From Deltaproteobacteria bacterium (GTDB lineage Bacteria; Desulfobacterota; Desulfobacteria; Desulfobacterales; Desulfosarcinaceae): a DNA stretch of 37,804 bases. The position numbers were made by a program, and so were the translations under genes. The first letter of the stretch is position 1; every line of letters starts with the position of its first letter. The stretch lies in the NCBI GenBank assembly GCA_020444075.1, contig JAHLLR010000051.1, forward strand, positions 1 through 37,804, given 5' to 3'. The notes below the pieces were generated by a model. It was given only the letters and a program-made list of their open reading frames with translations, did not search any database and was not told the DNA's origin. This document shows positions 23,504 through 30,993 of the stretch, one piece after another.

Positions 23504-23532
23504 TTGACAGGGCAAAGGATTTAACCTACAAG
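23504..23532 (+). promoter_or_regulatory. Promoter of the cobalamin operon
   Basis: A perfect TTGACA at 23504-23509 is followed after 17 bases by TACAAG at 23527-23532. The predicted start at about 23540 coincides with the first bases of the cobalamin riboswitch, which supports the call despite the imperfect -10. Confidence 0.6.
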
Positions 23533-23540
23533 CGGGGATA

Positions 23541-23718
23541 AAGGTGCGTTTCGCTTAATAGGGAATCCCGTGAAAACCGGGAGCGGTCCCGCCGCTGTAA
23601 CCCCTGTCCCTTTCAACTGATCGAAGGGAGTCCGTCGAGCCATAGGCCACTGTTCCGGGATACCGGTGTGGGAAGGCGCTCAACGGATCGGGGAAGCCAG
23701 AAGACCTGCCTTGCACGG
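23541..23718 (+). ncRNA. Cobalamin (B12) riboswitch
   Basis: This is the adenosylcobalamin/cobalamin-element aptamer. It shows the 5' segment with AATAGGGAATCCCGTGAAA, the AGCGGTCCCGCCGCTGTAA junction, a GCCACTG segment, GGGAAGGCG, and the B12 box AGCCAGAAGACCTGCC at 23695-23710. The 5' GTGC (23544-23547) pairs with GCAC (23713-23716) to close it. It lies upstream of cbiK and the uptake/biosynthesis genes and is followed by an intrinsic terminator, so high cobalamin should reduce read-through into the operon. Confidence 0.97.
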
Positions 23719-23788
23719 GTGCCGGAGAACCCTTCTTGGAAAAGCGTTCTCGGCCATTCACATATTGAGGGCCAAGTAAACTGGGTGC

Positions 23789-24005: not shown

Positions 24006-24995
24006 ATGTTCCAGCGTGCAGCCTTCGTTATGTTGATCAATGTGCTTTTTGTCCTTGTGGCGCCCTTTCCGGTTTGGGCCGGTGGCGGCGGCACCGCTGC
24101 CCGGGAGGGCGCGGCCATTGTCCTGGCCAGTTTCGGGACCACCGTACCCGAGGCTGTCGGTTCGATCATCAATATTAAAAAACGGGTGGAACATGCCTTT
24201 CCGGATACCCCTGTGAAAATAACCTTTACCTCCAACATTGTCCGTTCGGTGTGGCGGAAACGACAGGTGGACGCGCAAAAATGGCTGGATCAGGGCATCC
24301 CCAAAGAGGTGCTTTATGTGAAAAACATCGTCGCCACCATCGGCGATCTCCTGGAGTCGGGCTATAAGGACATCATCGTCCAGCCCACCCATATGTTTTA
24401 CATGGAACAGTCCTATGATTTAGAACAGTATGTCAATGCGTTGAGCGGCATCCGCACCATGAAGGCCAAGTGGCAGCCATTCGGCAGGCTGGTGATGGGA
24501 CGCCCGGCACTGGGCCGGCCGGGATCCGTTCACGATTATTGCCAGGACCTGGAAAAAGCCGTTGCCATTTTAGAGGGTGATGTGCGTCTGGCCCGCAGGG
24601 AAGCCGCCATGCTGGTCTATATGGGCCACGGGAACGAACATTGGCCCACGGGTATTTACGCGGAGTTCGCCCATCAGATGCACCAACTATATCCGGATGT
24701 CGTCACCTGTGTGGGGGTGGTGGAGGGATTCCCGGGGATCGACCAGGTGTCAGACTGCCTGAAGGCTTTTAAAAAGGGGAAAGTGGTTCTTAAGCCCTTT
24801 ATGATCGTCGCCGGCGACCATGCCATGAACGATATGGCCGGCGATGAGGCGGACTCCTGGAAAAGTGTCCTCACCCGGGCGGGTTTCGACGTGATGCCGG
24901 TGCTCGAAGGCCTGGGCTCCAACGATGCCTTTGCGGACATCTTCGTGTCCCACATCAAGGATGCGGCCAATGATGCCGGCATCGCGTTGAAATAG
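24006..24995 (+). CDS. cbiK: Exported sirohydrochlorin cobaltochelatase (CbiK, periplasmic type)
   Basis: The 329-residue protein inserts cobalt (or iron) into sirohydrochlorin. A signal peptide is visible: basic start, hydrophobic VMLINVLFVLVAP, and a likely cleavage after VWA near residue 25. The mature protein shows LASFGTTVPEA, QPTHMFYMEQ, the first catalytic His208 in VYMGHGNEHWP, and the second His272 in VAGDHAMNDMAGDEADSW. These match class II chelatases (CbiK). The exported form is known from Desulfovibrio vulgaris (CbiKP), where it also neighbours an ABC importer. AAAGGAG precedes the ATG. It is the first gene after the cobalamin riboswitch. I could not verify whether the additional heme-binding His of the D. 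vulgaris protein is conserved. Confidence 0.95.
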   Translation: MFQRAAFVMLINVLFVLVAPFPVWAGGGGTAAREGAAIVLASFGTTVPEAVGSIINIKKRVEHAFPDTPVKITFTSNIVRSVWRKRQVDAQKWLDQGIPKEVLYVKNIVATIGDLLESGYKDIIVQPTHMFYMEQSYDLEQYVNALSGIRTMKAKWQPFGRLVMGRPALGRPGSVHDYCQDLEKAVAILEGDVRLARREAAMLVYMGHGNEHWPTGIYAEFAHQMHQLYPDVVTCVGVVEGFPGIDQVSDCLKAFKKGKVVLKPFMIVAGDHAMNDMAGDEADSWKSVLTRAGFDVMPVLEGLGSNDAFADIFVSHIKDAANDAGIALK

Positions 24996-25077: not shown

Positions 25078-26142
25078 ATGTTAAATGCCTCTTCCAATAA
25101 TTCTTCCCATCGTCTGCAGAACCACAGCCTTCTCATGGCCGGTCTGTTGGCCCTGGCATTGCTGATGACCGTCAGCCTGTCGGCGGGAATGGGATATATG
25201 AAGATCGCCTGGGCGGATGTGCTGCGGGTGGTGGGCGGCAGCCTGACGGGAAATGCGGGGCTGATCGGCGACGTGGACGAGTTGACCCGGGTCATCGTCA
25301 TGGAGGTTCGTCTGCCGCGCATCCTCACTGCCGCCGCCGTGGGCGGCGGGCTGGCCCTGTGCGGAGTGGTTTTCCAGGGCATTCTACTCAACCCCCTGGC
25401 CGATCCTTACACCTTGGGGGTTTCTGCCGGCGCCGCCTTTGGCGCCGCCCTGGCATTGCTGTTCAATCTGACCGTGGCGGGGATCTACAGTGTGCCGGTA
25501 TGTGCATTTATCGGGGCGGCCGCCACGCTGGTCCTGGTCGTCTACCTATCCTCTTCTGCAGGTGGCGCCAATGCCAACAACCTGATCCTTTCGGGCATCA
25601 TCGTGGCGGCCATCCTTTCCGCCGGCATCAGTTTCCTGAAGTTCGTGGCCGATGAGCAGGTGTCGGTGATCATTTTCTGGCTCATGGGCAGTTTTGCTTC
25701 GAAAACCTGGATCGATGCGGGCCTGTCCGGCACCTTTCTCCTCGTCGGCCTGTTGGTGTTCCTTTTTTACGCCCGCGATCTGAACCTGCTGTGTCTGGGG
25801 CGGCGGACAGCTGCATCACTGGGCGTGGACGCCCGTCGGGTTCCGTGGATCCTTCTCGTTACGGCCTCGCTGGTGGCGGCAGCCTGCGTGTCCGTTTCGG
25901 GCATCATCGGTTTCGTGGGCCTTCTGGTGCCCCACATGATGCGTGCCCTGGTCGGGCCGGACAACCGTCGCCTGCTGCCCCTGTCCCTTTTCAGCGGGGC
26001 GATCCTGCTCCTGTGCGCCGATACGGTTACCCGAGCCGTGCTGCCCCATGAAATACCCATCGGGGTGCTCACGGCGCTGATCGGCGGCCCCTTTTTCTGC
26101 TACCTTTTCCGCAAACGCCAGACCGGCGGAAGGGGTTTCTGA
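25078..26142 (+). CDS. FecCD/BtuC-type ABC transporter permease
   Basis: The 354-residue protein has about nine to ten hydrophobic helices. Family motifs are VMEVRLPRILTAAAVGGGLALCGVVFQGILLNPLADPYTLGVSAGAAFG in the first half, the LGVDARRVPWILLVTASL region, and GFVGLLVPHMMRALVGPDNRRLLP near the end, the last contacting the ATPase. It forms the channel of an importer for corrinoids, heme or ferric siderophores. The riboswitch and the B12 genes around it favour a corrinoid or metal-tetrapyrrole. No good Shine-Dalgarno is seen before the ATG. The ATPase gene starts 2 bases after the stop. Confidence 0.93.
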   Translation: MLNASSNNSSHRLQNHSLLMAGLLALALLMTVSLSAGMGYMKIAWADVLRVVGGSLTGNAGLIGDVDELTRVIVMEVRLPRILTAAAVGGGLALCGVVFQGILLNPLADPYTLGVSAGAAFGAALALLFNLTVAGIYSVPVCAFIGAAATLVLVVYLSSSAGGANANNLILSGIIVAAILSAGISFLKFVADEQVSVIIFWLMGSFASKTWIDAGLSGTFLLVGLLVFLFYARDLNLLCLGRRTAASLGVDARRVPWILLVTASLVAAACVSVSGIIGFVGLLVPHMMRALVGPDNRRLLPLSLFSGAILLLCADTVTRAVLPHEIPIGVLTALIGGPFFCYLFRKRQTGGRGF

Positions 26143-26144
26143 CC

Positions 26145-26921
26145 GTGGGCTTTGCACTTCAGGGAATCGGTTTCGCCCACCCGGGCAAGACCATTTTCGA
26201 GGGGCTGGACCTGGAGCTGCCTGCCGGCCGTTTTACCGGAATCGTCGGCCCCAACGGCTGCGGCAAGACCACGCTGCTGGACCTGATCTGCCGGCATATA
26301 AAGCCTCATCAAGGCCACATCCACTACGGGGGCAGGCCTCTGGACGAATATGGCAAACGGGCTCTGGCCCGAGAGATCGCGCTGGTGCCCCAGGATTACG
26401 GTATCAATTTCCCCTTTACCGTCGAAGAGGTGGTTTTTATGGGGCGATACCCCCATACGCCCCGATTCGGCGCACCGTCCTCCGAAGACGTGGATCGGGT
26501 GACCCGGACCATGGCCGATTGCGATGTGCTGGCATTCAAGGATCGCCCTATCACGTCGCTGAGCGGGGGCGAGCGCCAGCGGGTGGTTTTTGCGCGAGCC
26601 CTGGCCCAGGACACCCCGGTGCTGGTTCTGGACGAGGCCACGGCCAACCTGGACGTCCGCCACACCCTGACACTGCTGGATTGGGTGGCCGGTCTGGTTC
26701 AGACCGAACGACGGACGGTGATTGCGGTGTTTCAGGACCTGAATCTGGCATCGGCTTACAGCCAGGACATCGTCATGGTTAAAGCGGGCCGGGTGGTGGC
26801 AGCCGGCCCTACGGAAAAGGTGTTTACCCCGCAGAATCTGAAAGAGGTTTTTGACGTTCAGGCCCGGGTGGCAGTTGACGATTTTACCGGACGGCTGCAA
26901 GTCCGATACAAAAGATCCTGA
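26145..26921 (+). CDS. ABC transporter ATPase (BtuD/FecE type)
   Basis: The 258-residue ATPase pairs with the FecCD permease. Walker A is IVGPNGCGKTTLLD, the Q-loop is LVPQDYG, the signature is SLSGGERQRVVFARAL, Walker B is PVLVLDEATANLDVRHTL, and the switch region is VIAVFQDLNLASAYS. In that switch segment a Gln sits where most ABC ATPases have the catalytic His (LHDLN becomes FQDLN), which is a notable substitution. Start is GTG at 26145, 2 bases after the permease stop; AAGGGG lies about 9-14 bases upstream. Confidence 0.94.
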   Translation: MGFALQGIGFAHPGKTIFEGLDLELPAGRFTGIVGPNGCGKTTLLDLICRHIKPHQGHIHYGGRPLDEYGKRALAREIALVPQDYGINFPFTVEEVVFMGRYPHTPRFGAPSSEDVDRVTRTMADCDVLAFKDRPITSLSGGERQRVVFARALAQDTPVLVLDEATANLDVRHTLTLLDWVAGLVQTERRTVIAVFQDLNLASAYSQDIVMVKAGRVVAAGPTEKVFTPQNLKEVFDVQARVAVDDFTGRLQVRYKRS

Positions 26922-26953: not shown

Positions 26954-27904
26954 TTGAAGGGAAAAACGTTCCTGCTCAGCGTTCTGATCGCATGGCAGTT
27001 GTGGGGGAGTGCAGGCCTTGCCGCTGATTTCCCGATGGATAAAGCCGTGCGCGACAACGCCCCCTATGCCCGCATCATCTCCCTTTACGGTGCGCATACG
27101 GAAAACTTGCTGACGATGGGTGCGGCCGCCCAGCTTCTTGGCATCGATGGTCAGTCGGCCCGCCTGCCCGGAGCCGAAGGAAAAGCGATCTTTTCCTATC
27201 ATGACGACCCGGAGCGGTTTCTGGCCGCCCGTCCGGACCTGGTGCTGATCCGTCCCATGATCGACCGCGGGTACCCTCGATTGGTGGAACGCCTGAAGCA
27301 AAGCGGGATCCGGGTGGTGTCGGTGCAGCCTACTACCGTGGACCAGTTGGAGGGATACTGGCGTCTGTTGGGGCAGCTCAGCGGAAGAGCGGCGCAAGCC
27401 GACGGCATGCATCGCGCCTTTAAGATGGCGGTGCATGACTTCAAGCGGCTGTCCGCGAAGGTGGAAAACCGCCGGCGGGTCTACTTCGAGGCCATCCACC
27501 CCAAAATGAAAACGTTTACGCCCCGGGCCATGGCCATTTTTGCCCTGGAAACCGCCGGCGGCATCAATGTGGCCGCCGACGCCCCGGTGCGGGCTGACAA
27601 CAACATCGCCGTTTATGGCAAGGAGCGGCTGCTCTCCCATGCCGCCGGGATTGATGTTTTCCTTTTCCAACAAGGCGCCATGAATCAGACCTCCGTGGAG
27701 GCGATCATGGCGGAGCCGGGATTTGGCGCCATCAAGGCCATCAAAACGGGGCAGGTGTTCCAGGTGGACGAAATGATCGTTTCGCGTCCTACCCTGGGGC
27801 TGTTGAAAGGGATTTACCGGATCGGCTGTTTGCTCTATCCGGACGTGTACTGTGCGGCGGGGTTGGACATATTGGCCGCCGCCGGCATGGATGGCGCGCA
27901 TTGA
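26954..27904 (+). CDS. Periplasmic substrate-binding protein of the FecCD/BtuCDF importer
   Basis: The 316-residue protein begins with a signal peptide (MKGKTFLLSVLIAWQLWG, cleavage near GLAA). The mature part has the TroA/BtuF helical-hinge layout: RIISLYGAHTENLLTMGAAAQLLGID, RFLAARPDLVLIRP, RLKQSGIRVVSVQPTTVDQL, and a C-terminal FQVDEMIVSRPTLGLLKG. No lipobox Cys is seen, so it is probably soluble in the periplasm. It is the third gene of the importer. The start is TTG at 26954, preceded by GAGG; no ATG is available that would keep the signal peptide. The ligand is inferred to be a corrinoid or cobalt-tetrapyrrole. Confidence 0.92.
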   Translation: MKGKTFLLSVLIAWQLWGSAGLAADFPMDKAVRDNAPYARIISLYGAHTENLLTMGAAAQLLGIDGQSARLPGAEGKAIFSYHDDPERFLAARPDLVLIRPMIDRGYPRLVERLKQSGIRVVSVQPTTVDQLEGYWRLLGQLSGRAAQADGMHRAFKMAVHDFKRLSAKVENRRRVYFEAIHPKMKTFTPRAMAIFALETAGGINVAADAPVRADNNIAVYGKERLLSHAAGIDVFLFQQGAMNQTSVEAIMAEPGFGAIKAIKTGQVFQVDEMIVSRPTLGLLKGIYRIGCLLYPDVYCAAGLDILAAAGMDGAH

Positions 27905-27970: not shown

Positions 27971-28112
27971 GAGCCAATTTCAAAACGCCCCATTTCGGCC
28001 AATATCGGCGTTGGGCTCACATTTCAATCCTCAACGTAGCGCGGCTACGCCTGCGGTTGAAATGATCGCCCGCCTTGATCTTGACCGAACTGAAACGTTT
28101 TGAAACAGGCTC
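27971..28112. repeat. 142-bp imperfect palindromic element in the B12 operon
   Basis: The outer arms 27971-27998 and 28085-28112 are 28-base imperfect inverted repeats sharing GAGCC, TTTCAAAACG and TTCGG. Inside them, ATTTCAA (28021-28027) and TTGAAAT (28057-28063) also pair, and the centre is CGTAGC-GCG-GCTACG (28035-28049). The whole segment can fold on itself. It lies between the binding-protein gene and cobB. It has no open reading frame of note and looks like a REP/MITE-like element. Confidence 0.7.
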
Positions 28113-28136
28113 TGTGGTTTTCAGTTTTTCCGGGTT

Positions 28137-28142
28137 AGGAGG
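28137..28142 (+). promoter_or_regulatory. Shine-Dalgarno that fixes an ATC start for cobB/cbiA
   Basis: A perfect AGGAGG lies 5 bases before ATC 28148. It overlaps an in-frame TAG (28136-28138), so translation in this frame cannot begin further upstream. Confidence 0.7.
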
Positions 28143-28147
28143 TCGTC

Positions 28148-29533
28148 ATCAAAGGCATCGTTATCGCCGGTACCCACAGCGGGTCAGGCAAAACCACCAT
28201 TACCCTCGGTTTGATGGCTGCGCTCGCCGCCAGGGGTTACGCCGTTGCGCCTTTCAAGGTGGGGCCGGATTTCATCGATCCCGGCCACCACAGCCGGGTT
28301 GCCGGACGGGTCAGCCGCAACCTGGACGGCTGGATGCTCTCACGGGCCTACAACCTGGAGACCTTTGCCAGGCACACCATCGACGCCGATATCGCTGTGG
28401 TGGAGGGGGTGATGGGTCTGTATGACGGCTACGACGGGCGCAGCGAAGCCGGATCCACCGCCCAGATGGCCAAGTGGCTGGGCCTGCCGGTGGTGCTGGT
28501 GGTGGGCGCACGTTCCATGGCCCGCAGCGCCGCCGCCCTGGTGAAGGGTTTTGAAGGCTTTGATGACGCGCTGTCCTTTGCCGGAGTGATGTTCAATCAT
28601 CTGGGCAGCGACCGCCATCTGGGTTACCTGAAAGAAGCCATGGACGGCCATGTGCGCATGCCGGTGCTGGGCGGTCTGGTGCGCGATGCGGCCATCGCCA
28701 TTCCCGAACGGCATCTGGGGCTGGTGACCCGCGACGATCACGATCTTTCCGCGGAGCATCGCAGGCGTCTGGCCGGGTTGATTGAGAGCCGGATAAACCT
28801 TGACGAACTGATTCGGATACTCCCGGAGATCGATCGTCGGGGGGGGGCGTCAATAGCCTCCAACGGGATGAATTCGGCTGATGTGCGCATCGGCGTGGCC
28901 CGGGATGCCGCCTTCTGCTTCTATTACCCAGACAACCTCGAGCTGCTGGAGGCGGCCGGAGCCCGTCTGGTTTATTTCTCGCCCCTGACGGACAGCCGGC
29001 TGCCGGAAGGCCTGGACGGGCTTTATTTCGGCGGGGGCTATCCGGAGCTGCACGCCGGGACCCTGTCTGATAACCGTTCGCTGCGGCAGGAAATCCGGCA
29101 TTTGAGCCGAATGAACATGCCCATATACGGCGAGTGTGGGGGATTCATGTACCTGTGCCGGGAGATGGGGGACGCCGAGGGCAACGCTTTTCCCATGACC
29201 GGTTGCCTGCCCTTGGACACCCGCATGCTCGGTCGGCTCAAGGCCCTGGGATACCGGGAAATCACGCAGGCACAGGCAACGGTGCTGGGACCGGCCGGGC
29301 AGACCATGCGGGGACATGAATTTCACTATTCCACCATTTCAGGTGGGGCTGTGGATGCGTCCGGAGCCTACCGGATGACCGACCGGGCCGGTATGGACAA
29401 GGCAGCTGAAGGTTTTGTGGCCCGCCAGACCCTGGGCAGTTATGTGCACCTGCATTTCGGAAGCTGCCCGCAGGCAGCCCGGCACTTCGTATGCGCATGT
29501 GGCCGGTGGGCTGCGGAACATAAAAAAGATTAA
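28148..29533 (+). CDS. cbiA: Cobyrinate a,c-diamide synthase (CobB/CbiA), apparent ATC start
   Basis: The frame encodes about 461 residues, the usual length. It amidates the a and c side chains of cob(II)yrinate (CbiA) or hydrogenobyrinate (CobB) using glutamine and ATP. The P-loop is IVIAGTHSGSGKTTITLG at the very N-terminus, then VAPFKVGPDFIDPGHHSRVAGR and VVEGVMGLYDGYDG. The C-terminal glutaminase has YFGGGYPELHAG, the nucleophile Cys in PIYGECGGFMYL, and MRGHEFHYS. An in-frame TAG lies at 28136, and no ATG, GTG or TTG occurs until 28211, which is past the P-loop. AGGAGG at 28137-28142 is 5 bases before ATC 28148, the likely start. A sequencing error of ATG is the alternative. Confidence 0.93.
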   Translation: MKGIVIAGTHSGSGKTTITLGLMAALAARGYAVAPFKVGPDFIDPGHHSRVAGRVSRNLDGWMLSRAYNLETFARHTIDADIAVVEGVMGLYDGYDGRSEAGSTAQMAKWLGLPVVLVVGARSMARSAAALVKGFEGFDDALSFAGVMFNHLGSDRHLGYLKEAMDGHVRMPVLGGLVRDAAIAIPERHLGLVTRDDHDLSAEHRRRLAGLIESRINLDELIRILPEIDRRGGASIASNGMNSADVRIGVARDAAFCFYYPDNLELLEAAGARLVYFSPLTDSRLPEGLDGLYFGGGYPELHAGTLSDNRSLRQEIRHLSRMNMPIYGECGGFMYLCREMGDAEGNAFPMTGCLPLDTRMLGRLKALGYREITQAQATVLGPAGQTMRGHEFHYSTISGGAVDASGAYRMTDRAGMDKAAEGFVARQTLGSYVHLHFGSCPQAARHFVCACGRWAAEHKKD

Positions 29534-29543
29534 GGAACCGTTC

Positions 29544-30161
29544 ATGAAACCCCATGAGATCGAACGATTGAGTTTTCAGATCATCGACAGCGAGGCCGGT
29601 GTCCACGACTTCCCGCCGGATCACTGGTCGGTGGTGCGCCGGGTGATTCATACCAGCGCTGATTTTGAATGGCAGGAGATGATCCGTCTGCATCCGCAGG
29701 CCATTTCCTCCGGCGTGGCTGCGATACGCCGCGGGTGCCCTATCATCACCGATACCAATATGGCGCGGGCGGGAATCCGTCAGCGGGATCTGGTTCCCTT
29801 TGGCGCCACGGTGCACTGCTATATGACCGATGAACGGGTGGCCGGGATCGCCGCGAGCACGGGCTTGACAAGGGCCAGGGCGGCCGTAGACCTTGCCGCA
29901 CCGGATCTTGCCGGGGGCATTTACGTGGTGGGCAACGCCCCCACGGCCCTGCTGCGGCTGATTGAGCTCATGGACCAGGGCCAGGCGCGTCCGGCCCTGG
30001 TGGTCGGGTTGCCGGTGGGGTTTGTCAATGCCGCCGAATCCAAAGCCCTGCTGCTGGAATGCGATATCCCCTATATTACCAATGTGGGCCGCAAGGGCGG
30101 CTCCAATGTGGCTGCCGCCGTGGTCAATGCGTTGATCATCATGGCCGGTGAAAAACAATAG
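29544..30161 (+). CDS. cbiC: Cobalt-precorrin-8 methylmutase
   Basis: The 205-residue enzyme moves a methyl group from C-11 to C-12 to form cobyrinate in the anaerobic B12 pathway. It shows the CbiC/CobH marks IERLSFQIIDSEAG, VVRRVIHTSADFEW with the catalytic His, GCPIITDTNMARAGI, the NAPTALLRLIEL segment and the RPALVVGLPVGFVNAAESK signature. The frame runs upstream to 29415, but the ATG at 29544 has AAGGA about 8 bases before it and lies 10 bases after the cbiA stop, so it is the start. It is cytoplasmic. Confidence 0.95.
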   Translation: MKPHEIERLSFQIIDSEAGVHDFPPDHWSVVRRVIHTSADFEWQEMIRLHPQAISSGVAAIRRGCPIITDTNMARAGIRQRDLVPFGATVHCYMTDERVAGIAASTGLTRARAAVDLAAPDLAGGIYVVGNAPTALLRLIELMDQGQARPALVVGLPVGFVNAAESKALLLECDIPYITNVGRKGGSNVAAAVVNALIIMAGEKQ

Positions 30162-30258
30162 ACCGGGATCGTTTTTGCCAACCGGCGATGCGGCCATTGA
30201 ACCGACTATCGACGCTGAACAGCTTCAACCGGAAAACCTTTTTAGAACAGGCGACGCC

Positions 30259-30993
30259 ATGAATACGTTAACCTACGGAACGCTTTTCGGCATCGGGGTG
30301 GGGCCCGGTGACCCGGATCTGATCCCCCTCAAATCGGTCAAGATCATCAAGCGGGTTGATGTGATCTTCGCGGCATCTTCCACGAAAAATGCCCACAGCC
30401 AGGCGGTCACGATCGCCGCACCGCATATTCCCGAAACCAGCGACGTGCGGTTGCTGCCCTTTCCCATGACCAAGGACCGGGCCGAAAAAGAGGCATGCTG
30501 GCAAGCCCATGCCCGCACCATCATCACCGAATTGGAAAAGGGCCGCGATGTGGCTTTTCTCACTTTGGGAGATTCGCTGACGTATGCCACCTACGGATAT
30601 GTGTTGAAGTACGTGCTGGCCCTGGCGCCCGGAGCGCCGGTGGTGACCGTCCCCGGCATTACCGCCTATCAGGCCGCCGCCGCCCGGGTGAACCGCCCCC
30701 TGGTGGAGGGGGAGGAGTCGCTGCTGGTGTTGTCCGGCGTGGAGGGGGGGCAACGCCTGCGCCAGTTCTCGGAAATAGTGGATAACGTGGTTTTCATGAA
30801 GGCGTATCGCAACGCCGGGGATATCACGGATGCCCTGGAAGAAAAGCACATGCTTGAAAACAGTGTGGCTGTGGCCAACTGCTGCCTGACAAACGAAGAG
30901 GTGATTGAAGATATAAAAACATTGAAGCAGCGCAAGCCGGGATACTGGACCCTGATCCTTGCCAAGAGAAACCACAACCATGAGGAACACTGA
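30259..30993 (+). CDS. cbiL: Cobalt-precorrin-2 C20-methyltransferase
   Basis: The 244-residue SAM-dependent methylase belongs to the tetrapyrrole methylase family. Marks are TLFGIGVGPGDPDLIPLKSVK, LTLGDSLTYATYGYVL, VTVPGITAYQAAAARVNRPL and FMKAYRNAGDITDAL. It methylates C-20 of cobalt-factor II or precorrin-2, the step after cobalt insertion by CbiK. An in-frame GTG at 30148 would overlap cbiC by 14 bases, but the ATG at 30259 gives the standard N-terminus; the 97 bases between cbiC and this start have no other gene. It overlaps the following membrane-protein gene by 14 bases. Confidence 0.94.
   Translation: MNTLTYGTLFGIGVGPGDPDLIPLKSVKIIKRVDVIFAASSTKNAHSQAVTIAAPHIPETSDVRLLPFPMTKDRAEKEACWQAHARTIITELEKGRDVAFLTLGDSLTYATYGYVLKYVLALAPGAPVVTVPGITAYQAAAARVNRPLVEGEESLLVLSGVEGGQRLRQFSEIVDNVVFMKAYRNAGDITDALEEKHMLENSVAVANCCLTNEEVIEDIKTLKQRKPGYWTLILAKRNHNHEEH

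Follow-up and report, generated by a model that had tools for sequence, protein, structure and literature searches.

To our knowledge, conserved AUH start codons (AUU, AUC or AUA) have been documented in few bacterial genes besides infC, the gene for IF3. Both infC, which begins with ATT or ATC and is autoregulated through IF3, and Streptomyces sigR, which begins with GTC, are described as being under IF3 control, and for sigR repression by IF3 at the non-canonical start has been demonstrated (PMC5472188). In Staphylococcus aureus, infC (AUA), ccpN (AUA) and cvfC1 (AUU) are reported to carry extended Shine-Dalgarno sequences (SDs), with non-canonical starts giving about 10% of the output of AUG reporters in poor medium (PMC13009471). 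A metabolic enzyme of Borrelia, pncA/BBE22, is described as too short in databases owing to its AUU start (PMC13398362).

The cobB gene studied here, from a member of the Desulfosarcinaceae, appears to begin at AUC behind a strong SD. It resembles infC in having a near-cognate AUH start, which in the infC of this genus appears to be ATA behind AGGAGGTG, but infC senses its own product, whereas cobB encodes a metabolic enzyme in which ATC and ATT prevail over ATA. With ccpN and cvfC1 it shares a conserved non-canonical start and a strong SD, the SDs of those genes being extended and their output lowered; their starts, however, were found by initiation profiling and reporters, and that of cobB by comparison alone (PMC13009471). 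In addition, the product of ccpN is a repressor, that of cobB an enzyme. Like sigR, cobB has a non-canonical start that is conserved in one taxon, accompanied by a strong SD and misannotated automatically, but the sigR codon is GTC rather than AUH and its repression by IF3 was proven by mutants (PMC5472188). The likeness to pncA/BBE22 lies in a metabolic enzyme shortened by annotation; there, genetics and a crystal structure reportedly stand behind the start, in a single organism (PMC13398362). Among the matches listed in our literature search (titles and abstract openings), there were no earlier reports of an AUC or AUU start for cobB, or of AUH starts in Desulfobacterales.

The window (the whole stretch of 37,804 nucleotides analysed, contig C67 of genome G000) belongs to a draft genome of 5.59 Mb in 173 contigs. 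The genes around cobB form a B12 cluster with the following elements.

23525 to 23724, plus strand: cobalamin riboswitch (Rfam RF00174, 75.9 bits, gathering score 31.5), 5' of the cluster.
24006 to 24995, plus strand: CbiK-like cobaltochelatase gene, the first open reading frame past the riboswitch (NF047852, 144.8 bits, below the cut-off of 400).
25078 to 26142, plus strand: BtuC-like permease gene (NF007081, 274.7 bits, below cut-off).
26145 to 26921, plus strand: corrinoid-type ABC ATPase gene (NF007082, 259.6 bits, below cut-off).
26954 to 27904, plus strand: BtuF-like substrate-binding protein gene (matches to TIGR04281 and NF002894, both below cut-off).
28148 to 29533, plus strand: cobB/cbiA, 461 codons plus stop (NF002204, 523.5 bits, cut-off 254).
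29544 to 30161, plus strand: cobH/cbiC-like gene with an ATG start (NF004057, 220.3 bits, below the cut-off of 311).
30148 to 30993, plus strand: cbiL (TIGR01467, 211.4 bits, above the cut-off of 163.25).

Only cobB and cbiL exceed curated cut-offs in this cluster. The cobB frame also scored above the cut-off of TIGR00379 (471.8 bits, cut-off 261.4) and below that of the CfbB model NF033195 (460.7 bits, cut-off 560), and a phmmer search of PDB sequences gave no match at E 0.001. Based on the curated models, the P-loop and the B12 gene context, the gene is assigned as CobB/CbiA, cobyrinate a,c-diamide synthase, with amidation as its predicted activity. The riboswitch would presumably act on cobB as well.

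The 243 bases between the end of the BtuF-like gene and the cobB start contain an intergenic repeat of 142 bases (27971-28112), located between that gene and the cobB SD. Its 17-base inverted ends match at 15 of 17 positions, and it resembles a non-autonomous transposon (MITE). The source genome has at least 41 matches to the repeat, 18 of them full-length among the matches listed, and matches are present in 12 of 13 genomes of the genus. All six copies inspected are flanked by duplications of 4-5 bases, which in the window copy read TGTG.

The region in which cobB begins contains four elements.

28136 to 28138, plus strand: in-frame TAG, which excludes a longer cobB frame.
28137 to 28142, plus strand: SD AGGAGG, with a duplex energy of -11.4 kcal/mol against the standard anti-SD tail.
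28148 to 28150, plus strand: proposed AUC start codon of cobB, based on reading frame, SD and relatives.
28166 to 28198, plus strand: P-loop AGTHSGSGKTT, which is lost if cobB is started at TTG 28211.

A first-pass annotation had proposed an ATC start from the letters of this region, and its description is accurate throughout: the TAG, the AGGAGG, the five-base spacer (28143-28147) and ATC 28148 are all in place. It was exact, too, in stating that no canonical codon lies between the TAG and TTG 28211, hence none (ATG, GTG or TTG) before the P-loop. The A of AGTHSGSGKTT is codon 7 (GTHSGSGKT follows from 28169). The codons after ATC 28148 are AAA GGC ATC GTT ATC GCC, and then comes the P-loop; the first canonical codons of the frame, TTG 28211 and ATG 28214, are both 3' of it. 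The truncation expected from automatic callers was indeed seen, with the mechanical list of open reading frames shortening cobB to 28211-29533 (440 amino acids) and removing the P-loop. RNA structure at the start was left out of the explanation, given folding z-scores of -0.14, -1.81, -0.70 and -0.77 for four genus sequences.

Comparison with close relatives, which the first-pass annotation had recommended, revealed that the odd start is kept. A search of 13 genomes of the genus found cobB orthologues in 10, with 57-82% identity, and the arrangement of ATC and SD recurs at the same codon (the site). In nine of the 10, no canonical start is present within 120 bases, and an SD precedes ATC or ATT instead. 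Eight of the orthologues, seven with ATC at the site (L001, L003, L004, L005, L006, L009 and L011) and one with ATT (L007), have no in-frame canonical start within 120 bases of the P-loop. The start region is offset by a few codons in L008 and L010, where GGGAGG is followed after five bases by ATT; L010 has no canonical codon, its ATT lying a few codons earlier than the site, and in L008 an ATG that lacks a clear SD lies another 27 bases upstream. By eye, nothing beyond the SD is conserved upstream of the site in the genus orthologues. Judged by its recurrence at the same codon in these orthologues and in further families, the arrangement exceeds chance.

We then compiled 132 distinct cobB starts from 80 named loci, from the family and from 194 genomes drawn evenly across the order, the majority of genomes being metagenome assemblies. 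The order draw yielded 89 places, of which 88 were examined after G065, which begins inside the gene, was dropped; removing 11 GPDYI-type paralogues and 2 unresolved places left 75 cobB genes. Over all 132 loci, the site codon was ATC in 47, ATT in 26, ATA in 3, ATG in 19, TTG in 3, GTG in 2 and another codon in 32. We defined a strict class, with ATC, ATT or ATA (ATH) at the site and no canonical start as far as the upstream stop or for 120 bases, and it held 33 of the 132 loci. In a further 21, ATH was the sole codon with a good SD, by limits of our own choosing. A canonical codon (ATG, GTG or TTG) stood at the site in 24 loci and a canonical start elsewhere in 29; some relatives have an ATG a few codons upstream of the site, for example L189, L209 and L237. 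The remaining loci had ATH at the site together with a possible canonical start (22, class E) or fell outside all five classes (3, L010 among them). In the order draw alone, the same six classes held 19, 18, 15, 10, 12 and 1 of the 75 genes. The possibility raised in the first-pass annotation, that relatives use a longer start, thus stands for the 22 class E loci and fails for the 33 strict loci. With canonical starts in so many relatives (24 at the site, 29 elsewhere and 22 possible), the trait is not essential. On this survey, the probable AUH start of cobB is a recurrent feature of the order Desulfobacterales.

The signals around the site suggest that the odd codon is used. All SD energies were calculated with an anti-SD tail that we take to be the standard one and that may differ from the host's. 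The SD at the site was -7 kcal/mol or stronger in 33 of 33 strict loci, with a median of -10.9 kcal/mol compared to -3.3 at other in-frame positions (Wilcoxon p = 2.7e-7). It was also stronger before strict ATH codons than before canonical codons at the site (median -6.2, n = 24; p = 4.5e-5), as it was when all 76 ATH loci were considered (median -9.5; p = 0.0015). ATA occupied the site in 1 of 33 strict genes versus 10 of 29 at the Ile codon five codons further on in the same genes (p = 0.0017); all of these p-values treat kindred genes as independent. Where orthologues carry ATG, GTG or TTG at the site, this is exactly where they begin. This comparison lends strong support to AUC 28148, which is very probably the initiation codon of cobB.

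Neighbouring genes do not share the feature. In the same clusters, a canonical start was found in 68 of 68 distinct cobH loci and 57 of 57 cbiL loci, compared to an in-frame canonical codon in 96 of 132 cobB loci; this control was anchored on motifs, and a canonical codon counted for the neighbours if it lay no more than 36 or 45 codons before the anchor, the limit for cobB being 40 codons. In a first neighbour control, run on closed stop-to-stop reading frames of at least 120 codons from the window and from those named loci that exceed 4 kb, a canonical start was missing before the estimated conserved block in 22 of 78 cobB frames and 90 of 312 others, that is, without contrast. It was discarded because antisense and shadow frames had been included and because the edge of the block, for example in cobH, often preceded a visible ATG. 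Outside the order, all 56 resolved cobB loci of a phylum draw had a canonical codon in frame. That draw gave 85 places, 3 already in the set and 15 left out; of the 67 examined, 7 were unresolved and 4 of the 60 resolved belonged to the same order. One locus outside the order, L283, whose N-terminal stretch equals that of L101, may be an odd-start user, because it has ATC at the site and its canonical codons lie far upstream without an SD.

Initiation at AUH may not be confined to cobB in these bacteria. In 13 of 13 genomes of the genus (L244-L256), infC apparently starts with ATA, with AGGAGGTG about six bases upstream (SD energies of -14.2 to -16.2). The N-terminus is shared, reading IAG in 12 genomes and IAA in the remaining one. 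The SD of the following ATG is weak in all of the 13 but L252, where it reaches -7.2, and canonical codons occur in frame further upstream in 7 of the 13, two of them with SD energies of -8.6 and -7.9. Given this apparent ATA start, AUH initiation and IF3 autoregulation are plausible here. The infC matches L246 (G009) and L250 (G010) each contain one stop codon. As for the tRNAs, ordinary genes were found at all 45 places listed for G001, a complete genome, and at 30 of 32 places in G000, including three and two CAT tRNAs, respectively; among them there was no sign of an odd initiator tRNA in these incomplete lists, from both of which tRNA-Ile(GAT) and tRNA-Ala(TGC) are missing.

Searching the source genome with the CobB protein found one other family member, of 39% identity (L002, C12). 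Its position after dsrB and a 79-amino-acid reading frame, which occupies the dsrD position, makes this paralogue very likely to be the siroheme amidase DsrN. DsrN was also considered as the identity of the window gene and rejected, as that gene sits among B12 genes and not beside dsrAB. The apparent TTG start of dsrN (L002 1459-1475, TTGAAACAGGCTC) has 13 bases identical to the end of the 142-base repeat (window 28100-28112); the first codons of dsrN may derive from the repeat end or the identity may be due to chance. In another genome of the genus, a cobB-family paralogue (L025/L027, G002:C4:72661-73999) is recovered as a pair of overlapping matches, one of which contains an internal TGA and TAA; either the gene is broken or the assembly is at fault.

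Several other explanations of the missing ATG were considered. The first-pass annotation had offered a base error for ATG, and an error of sequencing or assembly, or a recent mutation, is conceivable in a genome of 173 contigs; yet the same codon occurs in independent assemblies of relatives, including the complete isolate genome of Desulfosarcina alkanivorans PL12 (L006/L031), and ATC or ATT in many families. We therefore reject it, leaving it a negligible chance. Translation might instead use a different sense codon, or it might enter from an upstream start in one of the other frames and shift frame close to the SD. The other candidate codons 5' of the P-loop are ATC 28157 and ATC 28163, and 24 canonical-start frames cross the site in another frame in the 33 strict genes; one such frame in the window begins at 28075. 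However, the SD suits the first ATC only, the others being 14 and 20 bases from AGGAGG, and L009 has no second ATC between the site and the P-loop. The codon preceding the site varies among genus orthologues (GTC, GCG, CAT, CGT), and the crossing frames have scattered starts in either frame and no common pattern, for which reason a frameshift was rejected. A start elsewhere is thus very unlikely. More improbable still is a dedicated or modified initiator tRNA that reads AUC and AUU efficiently: the apparent AUH start of infC shows that such initiation would not be peculiar to cobB, as that explanation would expect, but the tRNA genes of G001 and G000 are ordinary as far as the incomplete lists go, and cobH and cbiL lack AUH starts.

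A more serious alternative accepts the AUC start but sees no regulation in it: the weak codon arose by drift, a strong SD and a low need for CobB make it tolerable, and turnover is nearly neutral. The quick tree (106 proteins, from the P-loop onward, start region excluded) is in line with this, as it requires no fewer than 20 switches between ATH and canonical states, a count that omits 5 rows (4 of them ambiguous and 1 lacking a start altogether), uses label limits slightly unlike those of the 132-locus classification, leaves 37 of 103 inner branches open and cannot distinguish gain from loss. ATH users are scattered across the larger part of the tree, interspersed with canonical users; L055, with a strict ATT, groups with canonical-start loci. 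Close relatives also differ (L163 with ATG vs L181 with ATC; L086 and L090 with TTG vs L092, L095 and L097 with ATC), and a strong SD accompanies the odd codon. Arguing against drift, the strict form persists in 15 of the 39 family codes of the order draw although ATG is one base change away, and cobH and cbiL in the same clusters show no odd starts. On balance we consider drift rather unlikely.

The reading that we favor, with some but not great confidence, is an AUC-initiated CobB that is translationally throttled and probably IF3-sensitive. The ordinary fMet initiator tRNA would read AUC 28148 despite a mismatch at the third position, the near-perfect SD holding initiation at this codon. 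The mechanism is likely that of infC, ccpN and cvfC1, in which a near-cognate codon is accepted through a strong SD. The predicted product, Met-Lys-Gly-Ile-Val-Ile-Ala-Gly..., would be consistent with orthologues bearing ATG at this codon. The near-cognate codon would keep CobB output well under the AUG level; the lowered expression suggested in the first-pass annotation is likely, judging by work on other bacteria (PMC13009471). By analogy, low CobB output may also be linked to IF3, to which it would be sensitive, the IF3 gene itself being apparently AUA-started in the genus. CobB could then be under dual control, responding to B12 via the riboswitch of the cluster and, for CobB alone, to the initiation machinery. 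More tentatively, and as a possibility that we hold to be somewhat less than even, an IF3-sensed start may have been kept in many families of Desulfobacterales, such that CobB synthesis tracks the initiation machinery (growth rate, IF3:ribosome ratio) without involving the B12 riboswitch.

Why CobB should be throttled can be guessed at from its relatives. CobB, CfbB and DsrN are described as related tetrapyrrole side-chain amidases, with DsrN acting as the siroheme amidase (PMC10504309). Sulfate reducers would need siroheme amide for Dsr, and surplus CobB might act on the wrong tetrapyrrole. An excess of CobB is possibly costly, because it belongs to the same amidase family as DsrN, which makes siroheme amide and is also carried by these sulfate reducers.

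By sequence criteria, cobB is a candidate for the small known class of genes with conserved IF3-sensitive near-cognate starts (infC, pcnB, sigR and ccpN): it has no usable canonical start, its odd codon is conserved where others have ATG, and a strong SD lies at start distance. Its probable AUH start occurs in many family codes of one order, belongs to a metabolic enzyme and has natural counterparts with ATG, GTG or TTG at the same codon; these variants constitute a ready comparative experiment on the purpose of a weak start codon. In these genomes, automatic annotation can remove the P-loop of CobB and thereby give a false sign of a broken B12 pathway. If true, an IF3-sensed cobB start would connect growth with tetrapyrrole amidation at the level of translation.
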